Assembly: GCA_021234155.1 (NCBI GenBank)
Contig: JAJEKV010000039.1
Coordinates: forward strand, 3,288,001-3,352,000
Reading direction: 5' to 3'
Length of the DNA: 64,000 nt
Source: Isoetes taiwanensis
Taxonomy: Eukaryota; Streptophyta; Lycopodiopsida; Isoetales; Isoetaceae
Of this stretch, positions 1,386 to 19,390 are shown piece by piece; positions within the stretch are counted from its first letter, which is position 1, and every line of letters starts with the position of its first letter. A model generated the notes under the pieces. That model was not told the origin of the DNA and searched no databases. It was given only the letters and a program-made list of their open reading frames with translations. Made by a program: the position numbers and the translations under genes.

Positions 1386-4356
1386 ATGGTATCTTGGAAC
1401 TATCGGGACTTCCCTTGGCAGAAAGGGGAGAGTCTCAACTCTATTGCACCAGATATGGATCTCATTTTCCTCATGGAAACATGGGAACGTGCAGGGCACA
1501 GACTGCCGAACCTCCCGGGCTATCTGCATTTCTTGGTATTCAATGAGTGCACAGGCAAGCGAGGGCATGGCGGGGTTGCCTGCTACTATCGTGCAACCTT
1601 GGGGCATTCAGTCTCGCTGCACAAAATAGACAGGTACAATCGATACTTGTGGGTGCGCGTGCAGCATGACAGTGGCAGCATTCTCTTCATAGCAGCATGC
1701 TACTTTCCACATGCCGAAAGCAGCTTTTATAACACTCATTCGGATGTGGATAGATTAGAGCCCTATGTCGATCTATATGATGACATACAGCAGCACAAAC
1801 AGTTGGGTAAGGTTATGTTGCTTGGCGACTATAATGCACGCACAAGAGTCGAGCAGGTCCCAAATTTTGAGCCCCTGGCAGAGGACGTCTTGCAGTTGAA
1901 CCCCGCAGAGGTGGCTTGGTCAAGGGTGTCAGACGACAACCATGTTTCATGCTATGGCATGCAGTTGTTGTTGCTGGGTAGTATCTTTGACCTGGTTATT
2001 CGTAATGGGCTGGCACAATGGTCATCTTCTAGCTGCTGCACTTGTAGATAGGAGAACCAAGGGGGCGGCTCCAGTGTGGTGGATTATCTGCTAGTTGAGT
2101 CTGCATCTGGTTACCCATTTTTCCATTGGAACAGACACTCGGGACGAGGAAGTAGACTCGGACCACCAGCCACTGTTTGTGCATCTTCATTGGCAAGCTC
2201 CCTGTGCATCTACTGCCTCAACACCCCAGGTGCCCCAGCTGTGCCTGGACTACCGCCGTGCAGGGACCTATGCCCAGCTGCTTGAGCATGACCTAGCAGG
2301 ACCATTGCAACTCCCCACACTTCAACAGCAATCTGCTGAGCTGACTCACCTACTTCTGACAGCTACTGAGAGATGCTTTAAGAGAGGCCGCTCACGGCGG
2401 ACCTTGGGCGCTATCACATTCCCCCGCAACAGGTGGTTCGATGATGAGTGTCAGGAGCTCAAGCGCACACTCTTGCAAGTCACTGATCCCACCTCCCAGC
2501 CACAGGCCATCAGTTAATACCGCTCCTTCCTCAAGAACAAGAAAGCCAGATACCTCGCAGAGCATCAACAACAGATGTTTGGTCTCCTGGATCAGCACCC
2601 CAAGACATTCTGGAGAAGGGTCTTGAGCAAGACTGCACAGCCCACAAGGAACATCACCTCGGAGCAATGGGTACAGTACTTGCAATAGCTTTACGACCCG
2701 CTCGGGGGCCGGACACCAGTCCCTCCACAGATAGGCATAGCTCTGGTCATCAGAGAGGGGGATGTCATCATGAGCCTACAACGTCTAGCTAATGCGAAGG
2801 CAACAGATTTAGATGGCATGCAGGCGGAACTTCTGAAATGGACTGGGCCTCCACTGGTGCCTGTTCTCACGACGTTATTCAACAAAGCATTGCAATATAA
2901 GGCTTCCCTTCACAGTGGACCACTAGTAAAGTTGTGCCCATATACAAGGCAGGGGACCCTCAATGCCCGGCCAATTATCGTACTATTATGGTCAGCTCTC
3001 TCTTTGCAAAACTGTTGGCTGGCATCCTTGAGCAGCGGCTGACAATATGGGCAGAGGAGGCAGAGGTGCAAGCTCTCACACAGGCAGGTTTTCGGCCCAG
3101 GCACTCCACCATTGATCATATCTTAACTCTGCGTACATTGATTGAGGATAGCAGGAATCACCGACAAAACCTGTACTATTGTTTCGTGGATTTCGCAAAA
3201 GCTTTTGACACAGTGCCCCGGGACAGGTTATGGGACAGACTGCGGCAGCTGGGGACTCCCCTTGACTTGCAGAATGCAGTGTATAGGCTATATGAGGCAT
3301 GCTCATGCCGTATCACATCGTCAGGACAGCCGGTAATCAGTAGTATTGGAATGCGTCAAGGTTGCCCCCTCTCCCCCACACTCTTTGGCTTGTACATTGA
3401 CCAGCTGGAAGATTGGCTCTCTGAGCATGAAGGTGCGGGCACCCATCTTATGCATCACACAATCCGGCAACTCATATATGCTGACGATGTCAACCTCCTG
3501 GCCTATACTCCAGAGGACATACAACGTCACCTGGATGCTCTTGACACTTTTTGCCAATTCACCGGCATGCGGGTTAACTTGGCCAAAACTAGGGTGCTGC
3601 TAGTTTCATCATCCCGTCAGCCAAGGCTTCCCTCATTCACTTACCAGGGACAGGATGTAGAGGTGGCTCCGACCTACAAGTACTTGGGGATCGAGTTCTC
3701 TACTACCACCCATTGGGATGCTGCCATCAGGTTGCGGGTCACTGCAGGTTGGAAAGCACTATATGCCATGCAGAACAACAGCCACAAGGTAGAGTTGTAT
3801 GCCTGGGACCACCAGTCACACTTATTTCGTCCTTTTATATGGGGCAGAAGTGTGGGGTCCGGTGATATCCCTCAACACCTGGAATGACCTCGAGCAAGTG
3901 CAGAAAGCCTTCTTGGCACGAGCCCTTGGGGTAAGGTCCACAGTTCCATACCAGATCCTACTCCAGAAGACAGGTTTTCTACCCCTTCAATGGGCTGCAT
4001 TGGAACGCCATATCATTTACTTCCAGAAGATGGTCGTTATGAGTGATATACGTTTGTCCAACCTTGTTTTGGCCATGGCGATGGGTCCCCAACGCCTAAA
4101 AGCCTGCTGGAAGGACAAGCAAGCTCAGTGGTTCTCACGCTGGGGTGTACAGGCAAACAGATGCGTACATGTCAGGACAAAGAAAGATCACAAGGCACTT
4201 AAGTTGTACCTAGATGCTACTTTCCTTCGCAAGCTCTGAGATGCAGATGCTCTGACGCACGTTAAGCTGGCACACTATCAGCAGCAAGTTAATCCCAGGC
4301 TCACGAGAGGCCCACACCAGTACTTGTACACCCAGTTGCCCATGAAGAAGCGCTAA
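1386..4356 (+). pseudogene. LINE ORF2: endonuclease-reverse transcriptase, broken
   Basis: The N-terminal part is an APE-type endonuclease: VSWNYRDF at the start, LMETW, then RGHGGVACYYR, LLGDYNART near 1820-1850 and SDHQPL near 2158-2176. The reverse transcriptase begins near 2770 (ANAKATDLDGMQAELLKW), continues with PIYKAGDPQCPANYR (2937 on), GFRPRHST, FVDFAKAFDTVPR and GMRQGCPLSPTLFGLYIDQL, and contains the catalytic box YADDVN at about 3477-3494. A C-terminal region follows to TAA at 4354-4356. At least three stops and three frame changes interrupt it. It copies its own RNA at a nicked target in living relatives; this copy cannot. The family looks unlike the usual plant L1 clade because of the ORF1 type and the non-poly(A) tail. 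Confidence 0.92.
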
Positions 4357-6837: not shown

Positions 6838-8931
6838 CGGTAGTCGAGTATTACCTCTCCGGGTTTGCCATTCTCAAGCTTCACCGATAGTATTCAACGG
6901 AGGTCTCGACGCGGTTTTATTCATAACTTCTGGCTCGGGTGTCAGATTCGGGTGTTTTTTAGTGCGTTGGAAAGCTAGAGATGTGAGCTTTCCATTGGCG
7001 TATAATTCATACAGTTTTATTGTGTCTATCTGGGCCGGATTTGGAGTTTACAGATTTCGGCTACCATGGCAAACCCTAGTTCGCCAGCTTCGGAAACACG
7101 TTCGTCAGCCAAGAAAGTGGTAGGTGGTGCTTCTGCTTCTTCTTTTGCACATGATATGAATTCTCCTTTGCCGCTTCCTAATTTACCCAATAATTCTCGC
7201 CTCAATCCTCTTGCTTTTGACCCTTCTCTTCTTGATATGAGTACAAGCTTGCAGCACTTTCCCCCTCTTTCTAAATCTGTAGCTTTGTCTACTTCTCAAG
7301 TAGAGACCACTGTAAATACTTCTACTATTGCTTCTGCTTCTTGTTTGTCTACTTTTGCTGGGGGTGTGTCTGCTCCTTCTGCTCCCTGGGGTTCTTCTGA
7401 TGCTGTGGCTAGGATGCCTTCTACACGATTTAGCGATTGGATCAAACGTGATTTGACATCCAGTGTGCAATCTGCTCGTGTATCTGCTGCATTAAGTATT
7501 ATGGTACAGAATAATAAGAAAGAATTGAGCTCGTATCTAAATGAGTTATAAGCACAAGATGATCGTATGGATGTTCAGTTGCCTCCTGAAGGTGTATTCT
7601 ATGAGACACAGCAGTGTTCAAATGCTTTCACACAGGCTGGCCTACTGGTTGTCGAAATTGATAATGCTCATTTGCAGTGTGTTCAAAACCTTGTGTCTCA
7701 TGCAGTTGTTTGCAATTTCACTGGACAGTTTTTGGATCTTAGGAGAGTTGGATTCTGGCTAAAACATCACCTTCAGAGACTGGGTTTTCCTCACTATGTG
7801 TCTCTAAAAGTTGTGGATAAAGATAATAATTTCTTCCTGGTCATGTTTGACTCTTCACTTGCAGTTGACAGGCTTGTGGAGTGTGGTGTTGATCCTCTTT
7901 GGGGACATTATCTTCTATATCAGGTGTATTCTCCTGGATTAAGTAAGTCTGGTGCATTGCGCATGCCTTGTTGGCTTGCCTTAGAGGATTTTCCACTAGA
8001 GCTGCAAGTGTCTGATTTTATGATGGCTATTGCCAATGGATTGGGTAAGCATCTTGCCCATTCTATTGTTAATGGTCCTCGAATTTGTGTATCTCTTCCT
8101 ACTTGTGTCTCTATTCCCCAGTCAGTAGTGGTCAAAAGTGGCCCACTTTTTTTCAAGTACAAACTACGTCTGCTTAATGGACCTGAGCTTGCCAAGATGT
8201 TTCCCAATGTTGACGCTTTCGCTACTTATAGATCTAGGCATACTTTTGTCTCTACCTCCCCAATGGCTCCTATCCCCTGTCACATAGCAGCCACTTCACT
8301 CGAGTGTCGTGTTGTATCATCTTCTTCCCCATATGCCTCTGCACTAGTTAATCCACCAGTATTACCAGCTCGTGTGCTTTCTTCTCTAGTTATTTCTGCA
8401 CCATCGCCTTCTTTGAGTGCATCTCCATCTCAGTCTATATCAGTAGACCCTCTTAATGAGGATCAACACTCTCGTCTTCTGGACATTGCTCACAAGCAAG
8501 AATTATTGAAAGAAGGATGATCTACTCCATGCTTGAAGAAGCTTGCACGTCGCAAAAATAGCTCGGCTCCTCAATCTGCGTTAGTTCACTCTGTAGCGCC
8601 AGTATCTGCTACGATTGTTACAGTGGATGTCCCTGATTCAGTGGCATTGGGACACCAGGGAGCAGATTAAGTTGCTGTTAATGATTCTATGGATGTGGAA
8701 GTTCGACCTGGTTAAAGTAACTTTTCTATAAATATGATTATATATTATTCTTCTCTTTGTAGGAGAGGAAAATAGTGTGAACTGCATTATACTGTCATGC
8801 TTAGATGGGTGGCCCTGCTCAGTTGGATCTGATTGTCCACTGGGTTTTTTATTCCTGTCTCTGCATTGTATTATGTATTATGATGGAGTGTTATTAATAA
8901 AGTTTGACGTCTTTCAAAAAAAAAAAAAAAA
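6838..8931 (+). mobile_element. Non-autonomous LINE derivative with ORF1 only and poly(A) tail
   Basis: A DUF4283-like ORF1 is followed directly by a 3' UTR and an A-tract at 8916-8931. No endonuclease or reverse transcriptase lies between them. The last bases before the tail (ATTAATAAA then TTT, then CTTTCAAAA) resemble the end of the LINE fragment at 34.5 kb (ATTAATAAAC then CCTTCAAAAA), which suggests the same family. The 5' boundary is approximate: sequence from about 6838 has the higher G+C of a 5' UTR. It appears to be an internally deleted copy that was mobilised in trans. Confidence 0.6.
7066..8715 (+). pseudogene. LINE ORF1 with DUF4283-like domain, interrupted by stops
   Basis: One frame runs from ATG 7066 to TAA 8713-8715 but is cut by TAA at 7549, TGA at 8518 and TAA at 8668. 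The first 160 codons are Ser/Pro/Ala-rich and low in complexity. Codons from about 7650 to 8240 look like the plant DUF4283 domain of LINE and gag-like ORF1 proteins: GQFLDLRRVGFWLKHHLQRLG, then a beta-rich stretch and RMPCWLALEDFPLEL, where a Trp in the W-x-x-L/I-x-x-L/F-P pattern is characteristic. A Ser/Pro-rich tail follows. No CCHC zinc knuckle is visible. The function would be RNA binding in a retrotransposon particle. Assignment is by motif recognition. Confidence 0.6.
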
Positions 8932-13216: not shown

Positions 13217-16200
13217 ATGGGTAATCAGCAGCAGCTGCTACTGCTAGCATGTTTCATCTTCTTCTTCCTCGTGCCAGTCATTGCATCAGATCCTACTTGT
13301 TCCTTTCCGGTAATGCCCTTTCCTTCCTGTTTCTCTGGAGTTAAGTAGATTTTCCGATTGAATTTTATTTGTTTTCTTGTTTCAGCAATTCTCATATAAT
13401 GACAAGCTCACGGAAGAATGGATTGCAAAAAGATCCCAATCCCCAAGACAAACAATGCCTATAAATTGGTCCAGATTTGGCAAGCCCAGGCCTTCATCCA
13501 ACTACTCGGATGCCCACATATCACTGGCAATAGAAGAGGCAAGCTTAGCTTAAGTTTTAAGCTCGCATTTTCACAAGTATGTTCAAAATGAGCACACTGT
13601 TTTGGATCCTTCTATTTTGCTGAGAATTATGGTAGTTTCTTGTAGTTTTTAAAGTGGTTACCGGATACACAAGTAGAAAATGGTGCTTTCGGAAGGAAAT
13701 TTGCAATGCTACCTGAGGGCATAACCAATGGGGTTGGAAATGGTCTCAGCCCCACACTCAAGTCGATTGCTCTCTCTGATTTGAAGGCTGGCGACATGCT
13801 TTTGCAGCTACCTGTAAGTGCATTGTGATGCCATTGTTGAATAAGTGCTTACATGCGAGCTGTTAATTTCAGAACATCTAAATTGTTGGAATTTGAACAT
13901 GGCAAAATCTAGAGACTTACCTTTTATATGAGACCCCAAATATCATGACACGGATACTATTGTTTGCACTCCAAGACTGGTGCCTGATAGCTCTGTTCAA
14001 GTATAGAACAATACTTCCTTGTCCAAGCCGTATATGTCATTCGGTCCCATAAATCCAGGTAATTGGCAAACCTAGGAAAACGAAAACAAAATGAAATATC
14101 ACCCTCTTGCATTAAAAGTTTTTTCCTCTTGTAAAGGGGAAAAATCTTCATTCAGCAAATGGCAATTGCTAGTGGAACAAAACTTCTCCTTCTGTAATCC
14201 TATATAAGAAATGGTTCAAAAGGAACTGCTCAGTCATCGATTGCAGTTAAGCAGTCTTCATTGTAATAGTTATATATTGAGATTGATATCATGGTAAGAA
14301 GCTCTTTTATGTGGTGACTGAGTTTTATTATGTGGAACAGTTGGCAGCTTGCCTCTCTGACAGTTTAGACAGTGAAGATCCTATCACATTGAAGCATGGG
14401 CCTTGGGAGTTACGTTTAGCAACAAAACTTCTAAGGGAGAGGTATACTGATTAGGTAACCTTTTCCAGATATGTAATATCGGATTATTTCTTATTGGATT
14501 TTATTATCTCATTGTGGTACATCAGGTCAAAAGGTCTGGCATCAGTGTGGGCACCTTATATTAAGTTAATGCCAGAGTCCATTCCACTTCCTATGTTCTT
14601 CAACCAACTGGTAGGTAGGCCTGGAGGATCAACATGTTAGAGATAATTTGTTTCGTTAAAATTTTTAATCAGTTTCTATTGTTTGAATGTTTTATCTTCT
14701 CAGGAGTTGAATAATATACAAGATGAATTTGCAAAGGATGAAGTGCAATCCATGAGAAAATTTGCTGTCTCTGCATTTCAATCATTGGAGAAAAATGAGA
14801 CAGCCGGAGCAAAGTTTTCTAGATTTGGTAATGCTAGATTTACTCATTAAATTTTAGACACATAGGAACTCAAGGTAGTATTGCTACTTATCATGGGAAC
14901 CAAGAAAAGAGAACACTGCTGATTTTCGAGCTCCTTTTGCAAAGCTAATGAAATATGGGAACTGCATTGCCAAGAAAAGCGGCCAGTTGCGGCGATAAAG
15001 CAATGCCATACTTCCAACAAAATGAATTGGCTATTTCAATGCCCATTCCTGTTGCAACTCTTTTGCTTAATATAACCTACCAAAATGGGCAGAGGCGGCC
15101 ATTTGGGTAGTTATCTTTAGATGGTCAAAGGATGACAAAGAACCAATAACGATAGATATTCTGTGTTGTTCCTCGATGGCCTTGTAGCTTATTCATGCTT
15201 GAGAACAAATGACTATTGGATCATATTAGAGGGCATCCATGCACAATTTATTCTACACCTGATAGCTTAGTTAATGCTTAACGGCTGGAAAATGGAGGCT
15301 CAGACGCATTTCATCTTCCCTAGAAAAGTGGCCATTCCAATTTCTCTTGTAAACAGGTTTTAAGTGGTAAAACTATCATCAGCATTAGGCATTTTTAGTC
15401 ATGGTGATAGAGACATACACATATAAAGCTTGCAGAGAATGTGAAAGGCTTTTCATGCTATCCTTTATGCTATACATCCTCCATTATACTCTTGTTGGGT
15501 CTCTGATGTTATGTTGTAAATTTATTTTGTGCAGTTTGGGCGTTATCCATTGTCTTTAGCTCAACTTGCAGGTTTGACTGGAATGATGGGACTTCTACCT
15601 CTCAGAAGCATGTGCTTGTCCCATTCTTTGGTATGAGTAAAGGAACCAGAATGGAAGGTAATCTACCAACTTACTACTAGTAGTATTTGTATGAATTTTG
15701 GAGTTACCAATATCAAAGTGTTTAATTTGGTAAGGAAATTCTAATGCAAACATGAAAGGGCATATTCAATTCTGACCCGTTTCTAGTAGAAGCCTTGTAT
15801 CGTTACTAACTAGTTTTATCTGAAAAATTTGTGATTTTAGTGGTTCTAGACGTGCCAAATGCATCACTTAGACTGTTCGTAGAAAGTGAAGTTGGCAAGG
15901 GGACAAATATATTTGTCAATCCCAGGGGAAGTACAGAAAGAGATACATTCCTTTTTCAGGGTGGGTTTCATCACAAGAAAGAAAGCCCGTGTTATGAAGT
16001 ACTGATAATTTTATAAACCTGGTCTTACGCAGCTTCTACTTTTGCAAACCAAACCAGCGATAGAGCAAGGCTTTTTCGGAACACTCAGGTACTGGTTATT
16101 AATTTGAGTATTTCAAATGTTTTTCCTGTCTGAAACGCAAGTTATATAGTTGGATGGTTATCTGGTTCAATTTTCTTCATTGGAGGAGTCAGCTTATGAA

Positions 16201-19200
16201 TCCTTCTAAAAAGTTCCAATTCCTGGAGTTGCACCTTTGACATATTTCTCTTCCTTTCAGTGTGTCTTTATTGTCTATAAACTTTTCTATTATGTGTTTG
16301 TAATGCATGCATTTTGACTACCTCGACTCCAACTAAACTGCTCAGGCCTAATAAAACTTTTCTATCCAAAAATTGTCATTTAATCAAGCTTCTAAATAAC
16401 CACAAAGGTCTTCAAAATAATGTGTGGTGTTACCTGATTAAGTAAGCCTTTTAAGGCTATAGAAATGCATAGTTTTCTAGTAGGATGCACAGTCCTTCAA
16501 GAAACAGAGATATGGAGGTATGTTGAACCTCAGATATTGTAGTTTATCAGTATATATCTTTTATGTGATTCCAATATATGGAACTTCTTTGCAGGATTTA
16601 GCAAATTGGTATTTTTCTAGCTATGGAGGAGTGAATAACAATAGGCATCTCACTTTGCAAATAGCATCAGATGCAGTCAGTACGATTGCTGCTAGAATGG
16701 ATTCAGAATCTTCTCAAGATATGGGAGATTTTTCTATTGGAACTAATGGATATGTTGATCCATGCATGATCTGTATTCTTGCAACTTTATCATATGCTAG
16801 GGAGTTAATGATTCTTTACAATAATAACACCTCAAATCAGATAACTCCCTTGGATTTTGTTAGCAAAGATGGTACTATGTGGGAAAGAATCTTAAAATCT
16901 ATAGGAGAGCAAAGCCTGTCAATCAATCTTCTCTTGTTGAAGGGCCATTTAGACTTCTCTCAAGCCTTTGATTTTGCGTCATCGGTTATTCAAGCACGGA
17001 TATTTTTTCTGCTCAAATCTTACTCAACAGATTTAAAAGAAGATCTTCTCTTGTTGAAAGCAGCAGATTGGGAAGGCTTTAGCAGTGATGATGGGAGCCA
17101 GTTGTGCCCAACCTGTCGATGGCAAAATGAGGTGCAAAGTTATAATGACAACCTTGCAGTACAGTATCGAGCTTCAAGAAAAGCTCTGATGCATGCTGTT
17201 TCTGCCCAACTTAGTAATAGGAGAGGGGAGCGTGGTAACTCGACTGGGATGGGCGTTGTTGATACAGAGACTGAATCTGGGGTGGAAGCAATTCGAGAGG
17301 TATGGTTTCTTTCCCAAGTCATACTTGGTTATAAGGTCCAATTATTTATCTTATAGGCTAATGTTTATTTTTAGTTTGTAAATTGGGGGAAAAACAATGG
17401 TTTGGATATTTCAAATAAATTGGAAATTGCAAACTTTGTGGTGGATGAAGACCATGATCATGATGTTTCTCATGGAAACGGAAGCCTAGTACGTGGTGTA
17501 CTTGTCATAGAGGACATAGAAGAAGGTGAAATTCTTTGCACGCTATCGGTGAGTTTTATCTGGCTTTATTTGTTATCTTCTCATATTTGATTTGAGAAAA
17601 TGATTGCGAAGCTTTTATGTTATCTTCGTAGATGCATGCGGGACTATTTGATAAAAATGAAGCAAGTAACAATATAGCAGACAGTTGGGACATGGCTGCG
17701 GCTCGGTTGCTTCAGGAGAGGTACATACAGTTCAGTAGTTCTTTACCGCTTCTGGTTGGTCTGACTCCAGGTTAGTTTTGATGTCCAGAGCTCTTGGGAA
17801 TCTGTCCAGGTGGGCTTCTTATATTAAAGTACTTCCCCGTGATGTTCCAACCCCAATAAGTATGGATGTGGAGGTCAGTGTATAGACCTTACGTTGCTTG
17901 GCATGTAATGTCTTGCTATCTCTTAATTTTGTGCACTGGGGCATACACAGGAACTTGAAGAAGTTCAGTGGTGGCCAGTGATTAGGGAGACTATACAAGC
18001 ACGGAAGGCTATCAAAGAAAGTTTTATTATGTTTGAAAGAGCGAATCTTGCATGGGCAGAAATTCAGGAATATCGTGAGCAAAGTCATTTGAGGAATTTA
18101 GCATTTTATTATTTCAATATTTTATAGAAATATTGTTTTTTCTTGCAGAATGGGCTGCAGTTATTGTCCATAGCAGGGCTTTCACACTTCCAGTTTTTGG
18201 GGATGACAAATACTCTCATTATGTTCTCATGCCATACATGGATATGATCAATCACCATTACATATACCAGGTAATGCGTGTTTATATATAATAAAAAATA
18301 GCTATCGGATGTGACTGGCCATTTTCTTCTTTGTGTCCTCTTGTTGCATCAATAGGCAGATTGGATTTCAAGACCCATAATAGATGGGAAACTTGAAATA
18401 GTCGCAAAAAAGGATCTACGGAAAGGTGAGCAGTTGTTTGCAACATTTGGACCAAGGTCAAACGACAACCTGTTCGTCTACTATGGTAAGGATACATGAA
18501 TAATAATATGTAAATTGTGTTTGTGATGGTCATTGTTAACTGATAATAACCGAACAGGCTTTATTCTAAAAGATAACCCATTTGACCAAGCCCGACTTTT
18601 CAGGTCTTTTGAGGTGTTCCCTGCAATCCATATGCAACTTTTAATTTTTTAGTGTGCCTTTGTAAATGGTTGCCTCACGCCTATAACATTTCAGGATTCC
18701 CTTATTTGGTTTGGTAAGCTGTGGAATACGAAGTGCAAGATGTGTTCTCAACAGCCTGTTGCTTTTGAGGTCTGCAATAGGCAGTTCTTGGGGTCCATTT
18801 CCTCAAAGGCTCAGGTTGTTCTTGAAGGAGATGGCATTGAGCAAAGCAAGGAGTGGTGGGATCTCGTGAACAAGTGGGCCGATTATGGTTATCAGTACTT
18901 ACCATATACGCCTGGCCCCAACCTTTATTCATTTGGTGTTATGGATCCAACTTTAGTCAGTGCATATGCTGCTGCTTCTTCTGTCATTGATTTCGAACTG
19001 GGAAATCTTACACAAAATGCCAGCTGTCCCAGAGGTCTCTGCTCAGAAAAATCTGGTCACCTCAAGAAGTTTTTTATCTGCATGGAAGACTTGAGGAATC
19101 TAGTAGGAAGGCCCTTATCCAGTGAACATCCATGCTGGCCTCATATGATTTCGGCTTTGATGCTAGAAGATAAAGCTTCATCAAACCAATTTATTGCTAG

Positions 19201-19390
19201 GATTTCAATAGGATTAAGATGTTTGGAAATTATATCTACATTTCCTACTTCAATATATCAGGACAAAATATTACTAGGAAATAAAGCTGAGATGGCTAAT
19301 AAGCATGTCCTCTTGGCGAGGAAATATAGATTAATGAAAAAGATGTTTTTAAGGACTCCAGTAGAACAGTTAATAAATTCCAATCGTTAA
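13217..19390 (+). CDS. Secretory-pathway protein with two tandem SET / Rubisco-LSMT-like modules, 18 exons
   Basis: Exons: 13217-13309, 13386-13538, 13646-13813, 14341-14441, 14526-14610, 14704-14827, 15535-15657, 15841-15960, 16033-16088, 16595-17299, 17375-17548, 17632-17720, 17789-17873, 17951-18074, 18149-18270, 18356-18485, 18558-18613, 18695-19390; frame is continuous for about 1067 codons. The N-terminus is a signal peptide (MGNQQQ, hydrophobic core, cleavage near VIAS). Module 1 (exons 3-10) and module 2 (exons 11-18) each have a SET N-part, an insert, a SET C-part and a Rubisco-LSMT substrate-binding-like C-domain. Module 2 keeps the SET motifs: WASYIKVLP, MPYMDMINHH, GEQLFATFGPRSND and VYYGF. 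In module 1 the counterparts read VPFFGMSKGT and FVNPRGSTERDTFLFQ, so the Asn-His pair and the Tyr are gone. SET enzymes of this class methylate lysines using S-adenosylmethionine; the substrate here is unknown. All introns are GT-AG except intron 2. Confidence 0.85.
13539..13540 (+). other. GC donor of intron 2 (GC-AG intron)
   Basis: Exon 2 ends ATAGAAGAG and the intron begins GCAAGC. Joining it to the acceptor TTGTAG at 13641-13645 keeps the frame and gives AIEE-FLKWLP, which fits the start of the LSMT-type domain. No GT donor nearby keeps the frame. Confidence 0.6.

Follow-up and report, generated by a model that had tools for sequence, protein, structure and literature searches.

A tandem duplication within a SETD3/LSMT-class gene of the quillwort Isoetes taiwanensis

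A gene of Isoetes taiwanensis (a quillwort, and hence a lycophyte, not a bryophyte) encodes two SETD3/LSMT-class modules in tandem, and, judged from the sequence, the positions of the introns within the modules establish that a gene body already carrying these introns was duplicated in tandem. The gene lies on the plus strand at positions 13217-19390 of the window, by which we mean the whole stretch of 64,000 nucleotides that was analysed (3288001-3352000 of the contig labelled C1044; the genome assembly that was scanned has 1,658,258,908 bases in 1110 contigs). Rebuilt from the exon list of the original prediction and from splice sites, the gene has 18 exons and an open CDS of 3204 nt (1067 amino acids), and its introns are all GT-AG except intron 2, which is GC-AG (GC at 13539). 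All 16 exon lengths in the original prediction were recovered, the last one with the stop codon included, and the predicted gene end at 19390 is retained; the predicted start at 13646 has to be moved upstream, because exons 1 (13217-13309) and 2 (13386-13538) precede it. Exon 1 provides the start codon and a signal-peptide-like hydrophobic stretch (residues 1-31), and exon 2 provides an N-terminal extension (residues 32-82) followed by the GC-AG intron.

Module 1 (residues 83-576) starts with seven exons, each placed by the gene model and the module alignment and paired in order with exons 11 to 17 of module 2: exon 3 (13646-13813, 168 nt), exon 4 (14341-14441, 101 nt), exon 5 (14526-14610, 85 nt, encoding WAPYIKLMP), exon 6 (14704-14827, 124 nt), exon 7 (15535-15657, 123 nt), exon 8 (15841-15960, 120 nt) and exon 9 (16033-16088, 56 nt, encoding DRARLFRNTQ). 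It ends in exon 10 (16595-17299, 705 nt), which holds the C-terminal part of the module and a linker of probably about 26 residues. Intron 10 (17300-17374) is the sole DNA that separates the coding sequences of the two modules. Module 2 (residues 577-1067) comprises exon 11 (17375-17548, 174 nt), placed by the gene model, exon 12 (17632-17720, 89 nt), exon 13 (17789-17873, 85 nt, encoding WASYIKVLP), exon 14 (17951-18074, 124 nt) and exon 17 (18558-18613, 56 nt, encoding DQARLFRSFE), placed in addition by the module alignment, exon 15 (18149-18270, 122 nt) and exon 16 (18356-18485, 130 nt), placed by the gene model and the alignment to SETD3, and the C-terminal exon 18 (18695-19390, 696 nt including the stop), for which all three sources are available.

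A significant self-alignment of the two halves had been set beforehand as a test of the duplication, and it was found. BLASTP of module 1 against module 2 gives E = 4e-20 with 25.5% identity over 239 columns of the SET region (E = 1e-19 without composition correction), and phmmer gives E = 1e-21. It is also evident that the introns coincide. In a module alignment built without reference to introns, six of the seven internal introns (introns 1, 2, 3, 4, 6 and 7) fall on the identical aligned base and in the same phase, the phases being 0,2,0,1,1,1,0 in module 1 and 0,2,0,1,0,1,0 in module 2, and if seven introns were placed at random in 780 nt, at least six would coincide with p = 1.6e-13. The remaining intron 5 (exon 7/8 versus exon 15/16) adjoins an alignment gap and is 10 nt off as aligned, in phase 1 versus phase 0.

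Homology of eight exon pairs, as originally proposed, holds for the exons of the SET region; for exons 10 and 18 it depends on position, length and insignificant alignments. Sequence similarity is clear in the pairs 5/13 and 9/17 (0 of 1000 shuffles reach the score in each), weaker in 3/11, 4/12, 7/15 and 8/16 (31, 10, 14 and 33 of 1000 shuffles, respectively) and not significant in 6/14 taken by itself (139 of 1000). Exons 10 and 18 match in length and place, and their sequence similarity is not above that of shuffled sequences (the score is reached by 493 of 2000 shuffles in one run and by 237 of 1000 in that of the exon pairs). Each of them aligns, insignificantly, to the C-terminal domain of SETD3, and structure predictions of the two exons as single sequences (mean pLDDT 36.2 and 37.6) were too poor for a fold search. 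The C-terminal domain would probably also have been within the duplicated unit.

Domain class, catalytic positions and the N-terminus

The Pfam SET profile (PF00856) matches module 2 with 24.7 bits (cut-off 22.4, E = 3.2e-5), and it gives no match in module 1 up to E = 1. Two other Pfam matches of module 1 are far below the cut-off (E = 0.13 and 0.15) and were taken as chance, and module 1 was assigned no Pfam or NCBIfam name. In a search of solved structures, SETD3 is matched by module 2 at 4e-13, by module 1 at 0.001 and by a joint profile of both modules at 2e-20; the joint profile also matches pTAC14 (1e-9), LSMT (2e-7) and SETD6 (1.5e-5). The gene had been called LSMT-like, which is correct at the level of the SETD3/LSMT class, and the closest solved relative is SETD3, not LSMT. 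As described in the available text of PMC8537074, proteins of the SETD3 class combine a SET core, into which a helical part is inserted, with a C-terminal domain that binds the substrate. The Rubisco LSMT substrate-binding domain (PF09273) was not detected in either half of the window gene, and none of the 7 matches listed by a genome scan is in the window. Two loci elsewhere, C1029:19168168 and C1047:1320228, show equal PF09273 matches (59.7 bits each) and are perhaps recent duplicates of an LSMT-like gene.

Residues were mapped to SETD3 by the alignments of module 2 and of the joint profile, with the numbering counted on the 6wk2 row. Module 2 keeps the AdoMet-binding Asn-His (Asn768-His769 in exon 15, aligned to N278-H279 of SETD3) and Tyr-Gly-Phe, and it has Phe805 (exon 16) at the position of Y313 and Phe745 (exon 15) at residue 256, where the wild-type rows carry Asn. 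Module 1 has Lys277-Gly278 (exon 7) in place of Asn-His, Pro310 (exon 8) in place of the Tyr and Gln322-Ala323-Ser324 in place of Tyr-Gly-Phe. SETD3 carrying N278A is nearly without activity in the measurements given in PMC6400499. From these substitutions module 1 looks like a degenerate, non-catalytic pseudo-SET, and module 2 may be a cofactor-binding module with a lysine-type pocket and an impaired centre.

Module 2 might instead be an active protein lysine methyltransferase with module 1 merely as its regulator, a reading that we consider possible but unlikely. It would agree with the retained Asn-His, with a SET match above the cut-off and with Phe745, as a Phe in contact with the lysine may also occupy the SETD3 N256 position in LSMT and SETD6 (PMC8537074, in the part available). 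Phe805 speaks against full activity, as the corresponding Y313F change in SETD3 lowers kcat for actin about 36-fold (PMC6400499, likewise in part). The predicted location of the protein bears on the same question. A 17-residue hydropathy peak of 3.06 lies at residue 7, and the N-terminus, whether considered for plastid targeting or for a signal peptide, is hydrophobic and signal-peptide-like as judged by hydropathy alone, which suggests entry into the secretory pathway. To our knowledge, a SET enzyme in that pathway would be out of the ordinary, which is a further point against an active module 2. N-glycosylation sequons number 12 versus 7.5 expected, an excess that is not convincing (261 of 5000 shuffles reach 12). 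We prefer to regard module 2 as a module that binds its cofactor and transfers methyl groups weakly or not at all.

Related loci of the genome and the origin of the two modules

To see how common such coincidence is, eight other loci of the genome served as a control; they were modelled by spliced alignment against module 2, and introns with both flanks supported were counted. At the stringent setting (intron cost 20), at which L011 and L015 yielded no intron, none of the 11 control introns coincides with module 2. At a looser setting (intron cost 12) one of 21 coincides, in a weak stretch of L013, and this one is gone at cost 20; with module 1 as the query, none of 6 introns coincides at cost 12 and none of 3 at cost 20. 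The intron counts are not all independent (L009 resembles L008, and L013 resembles L010), some long introns may be spurious, and the control set leaves out, among others, C1047:1320228, C908:5031948, C1041:8127152, C1034:13244755 and C1018:5003520. Each control locus has one module, as judged from the stretches that were fetched. Within the control loci the shared intron pattern is peculiar to the window gene. Because the introns coincide in the two modules and such coincidence is rare in the related loci, the original proposal, that a SET gene body rich in introns was duplicated in tandem and fused in frame, is well supported.

A fusion of two different SETD paralogues that had diverged previously, in place of the duplication of one gene, is improbable, although some of the sequence comparisons could be read in its favour. 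The identity between the modules is just 25.5%, and in a tree of six partly fragmentary SET segments the support for uniting modules 1 and 2 is 49. Measured from module 2, the tree distances are 1.78 to L012, a short fragment, 2.97 to L008 and 3.29 to both L010 and module 1. In the same tree, however, module 1 is closer to module 2 (3.29) than to the four other sequences (4.00-4.74), and six exact intron coincidences, as opposed to none among the 11 control introns at the stringent setting, are what would be expected from one duplicated gene body. Duplication of a single gene thus remains the preferred origin.

Spliced alignments of L008, L009, L010, L012, L013 and L014 show Tyr at the position of SETD3 Tyr313, and L015 shows Cys in an uncertain reading. 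L011 (C1045), also one of the eight control loci, was rejected as a paralogue; it is a decayed fragment of exons 14-17 of the window gene, similar to CDS positions 2131-2459 with a score of 162 versus 39-49 in five shuffles. Among prokaryote genome contigs, profile A1 gave 332 pattern matches and no relatives.

Continuity of the transcript and copies of the gene

A single transcript across both modules is likely, given the short intron 10 (75 bases) and the lack of any Met codon in exon 11. The reading frame stays open through exon 10 as far as the splice donor and continues into exon 11 in phase 0; beyond the joint, the first Met is residue 635, where exon 12 begins. Copies of the gene elsewhere in the genome bear on parts of the model. 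At C1103:946336-947331 there is a contiguous intronless copy of exons 1-9, in which 7 of the 8 junctions are as modelled, none of them with more than 2 mismatches in 24 nt (junction 1/2 with 0 of 24); these include the junctions of exons 4 to 8 and junction 8/9. At junction 2/3, matched with 0 of 24 mismatches, the copy joins 13538, the modelled 3' end of exon 2, to 13677; this skips the first 31 nt of exon 3 as modelled and breaks the reading frame. Window positions 13675-13676 are therefore an alternative, frame-breaking acceptor for exon 3 used in this copy. The match to the gene stops precisely where exon 9 ends; what follows in the copy is foreign sequence, and the joint is not covered. 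A second spliced fragment on C1103 contains parts of exons 4-6 and a few bases of exon 3. Two direct repeats, each about 630 bases long and 96% alike, enclose both spliced pieces (L016/L017, C1103:945403-951330), and the repeats and pieces together are probably an LTR-type element carrying processed pieces of the window gene.

Intron-bearing copies were also found. Those on C1032 and C310 have exons 10 and 11 in gene order, which speaks against a local assembly error at the joint, and that on C24 has parts of both exons. All three copies (L004, L006 and L007, on C1032, C310 and C24, respectively) end at window positions 18159-18161, and two of them begin at 15635-15639; the third reaches the edge of the sequence retrieved for it before its start. 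L004 has a 263-base direct repeat, 98.9% alike, on both sides of the copy, and related repeats flank L006 and L007. These three copies probably descend from a single capture event, at the DNA level, by a mobile element that later spread. No intact second gene was found among the matches listed, which are the best candidates of the genome search. The window itself holds remains of a LINE-type retroelement at 1386-3887 (Exo_endo_phos, 6e-8; RVT_1, 3e-33) and, at 7567-8520, an open frame with a DUF4283 match below threshold (22.2 bits, cut-off 27.2) that is possibly retroelement-derived.

The presence of several partial copies raises the possibility that the window locus itself is decaying or non-functional, which we consider very unlikely. 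No constraint is detectable in the gene-copy differences, where the ratios of nonsynonymous to synonymous changes (8:4 versus 72:27; P = 0.74, Fisher's test) show no excess of synonymous change in a comparison without power. Unconstrained DNA, however, would not have kept 1067 open codons and intact splice sites through a divergence to 25.5% identity; among the 99 differences private to the copies, 5 touch a stop codon, and the spliced copy on C1103 implies that exons 1-9 are transcribed. Least probable of all is that the modules are two adjacent tandem genes with separate transcripts merged by the model, for although the spliced copy on C1103 stops exactly where module 1 passes into exon 10, this reading is opposed by the short distance between the modules, by the open exon 10 with its phase-0 join and by the Met-less exon 11.

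We thus favour, with moderate confidence, one gene and one protein: a duplicated SETD3/LSMT-class gene in which module 1 is a pseudo-SET and module 2 a weak or non-transferring binder, with a secretory location. An ancestral gene of this class, its SET-region introns already present, would have been duplicated head to tail, and the copies would have been fused in frame via the linker and the short phase-0 intron, with continuity of the transcript across the joint. Substitutions at Asn-His, Tyr and Tyr-Gly-Phe would afterwards have turned module 1 into a pseudo-SET scaffold, and module 2 may bind AdoMet and protein with methyl transfer weak or absent. In such a product, module 1 would recognise the substrate or partner, module 2 would provide the cofactor site, and the whole would most likely act as a binding protein or as a slow lysine methyltransferase. 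The two-module architecture is directly visible in the gene model; the biochemistry and location are what we would expect from the sequence. By analogy with pseudokinase-kinase tandems, the protein might even be a pseudo-SET/SET tandem of the secretory pathway in which the pseudoenzyme module 1 regulates or addresses module 2, which is a rather doubtful proposal. If true, proteins would be methylated, or bound under the control of AdoMet, either in the ER lumen or in the extracellular space of the plant.

Comparison with known SET proteins

SETD3, an actin-histidine N-methyltransferase, is the best solved-structure match of the joint profile and shares the Asn-His with module 2. It differs in having one module and in its residues Tyr313 and Asn256, both of which correspond to Phe in module 2; we know of no secretory signal in SETD3. 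Rubisco LSMT (PF00856 and PF09273; plant class VII/SETD) is a plastid enzyme that is similar at the level of the class and may have Phe at the SETD3 Asn256 position, and it differs in having one module and in carrying PF09273. The plant SET-class protein pTAC14/PAP7, a subunit of the plastid RNA polymerase with a solved structure, likewise has one module.

Two SET domains in one protein of the plant lineage are mentioned in one passage of a survey of 506 plant-lineage SET proteins, for a Chlamydomonas class IV-C Su(var) protein; it resembles the window gene in this respect but has SRA and PreSET domains and is not of the SETD/LSMT class (PMC5725981). In the available text of that survey, SETD proteins with the Rubisco LSMT domain form class V. 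Among the matches listed in the literature searched, partly available as text, no SETD/LSMT protein with tandem SET modules was seen, which agrees with the original prediction that the architecture was not that of a recognised family. Proteins of this class have one module each, and the window gene has two in one open model that probably yields a single protein. A domain survey would count one SET for the two modules, because module 1 scores no Pfam SET. Should module 1 be a regulatory pseudo-SET, the gene would make it possible to examine how an inactive SET module influences an active one. The gene is also a clean case in which intron positions betray an internal gene duplication after the protein has diverged to about 25% identity, and it is an unusual but understandable two-module variant of the known SETD/LSMT class.
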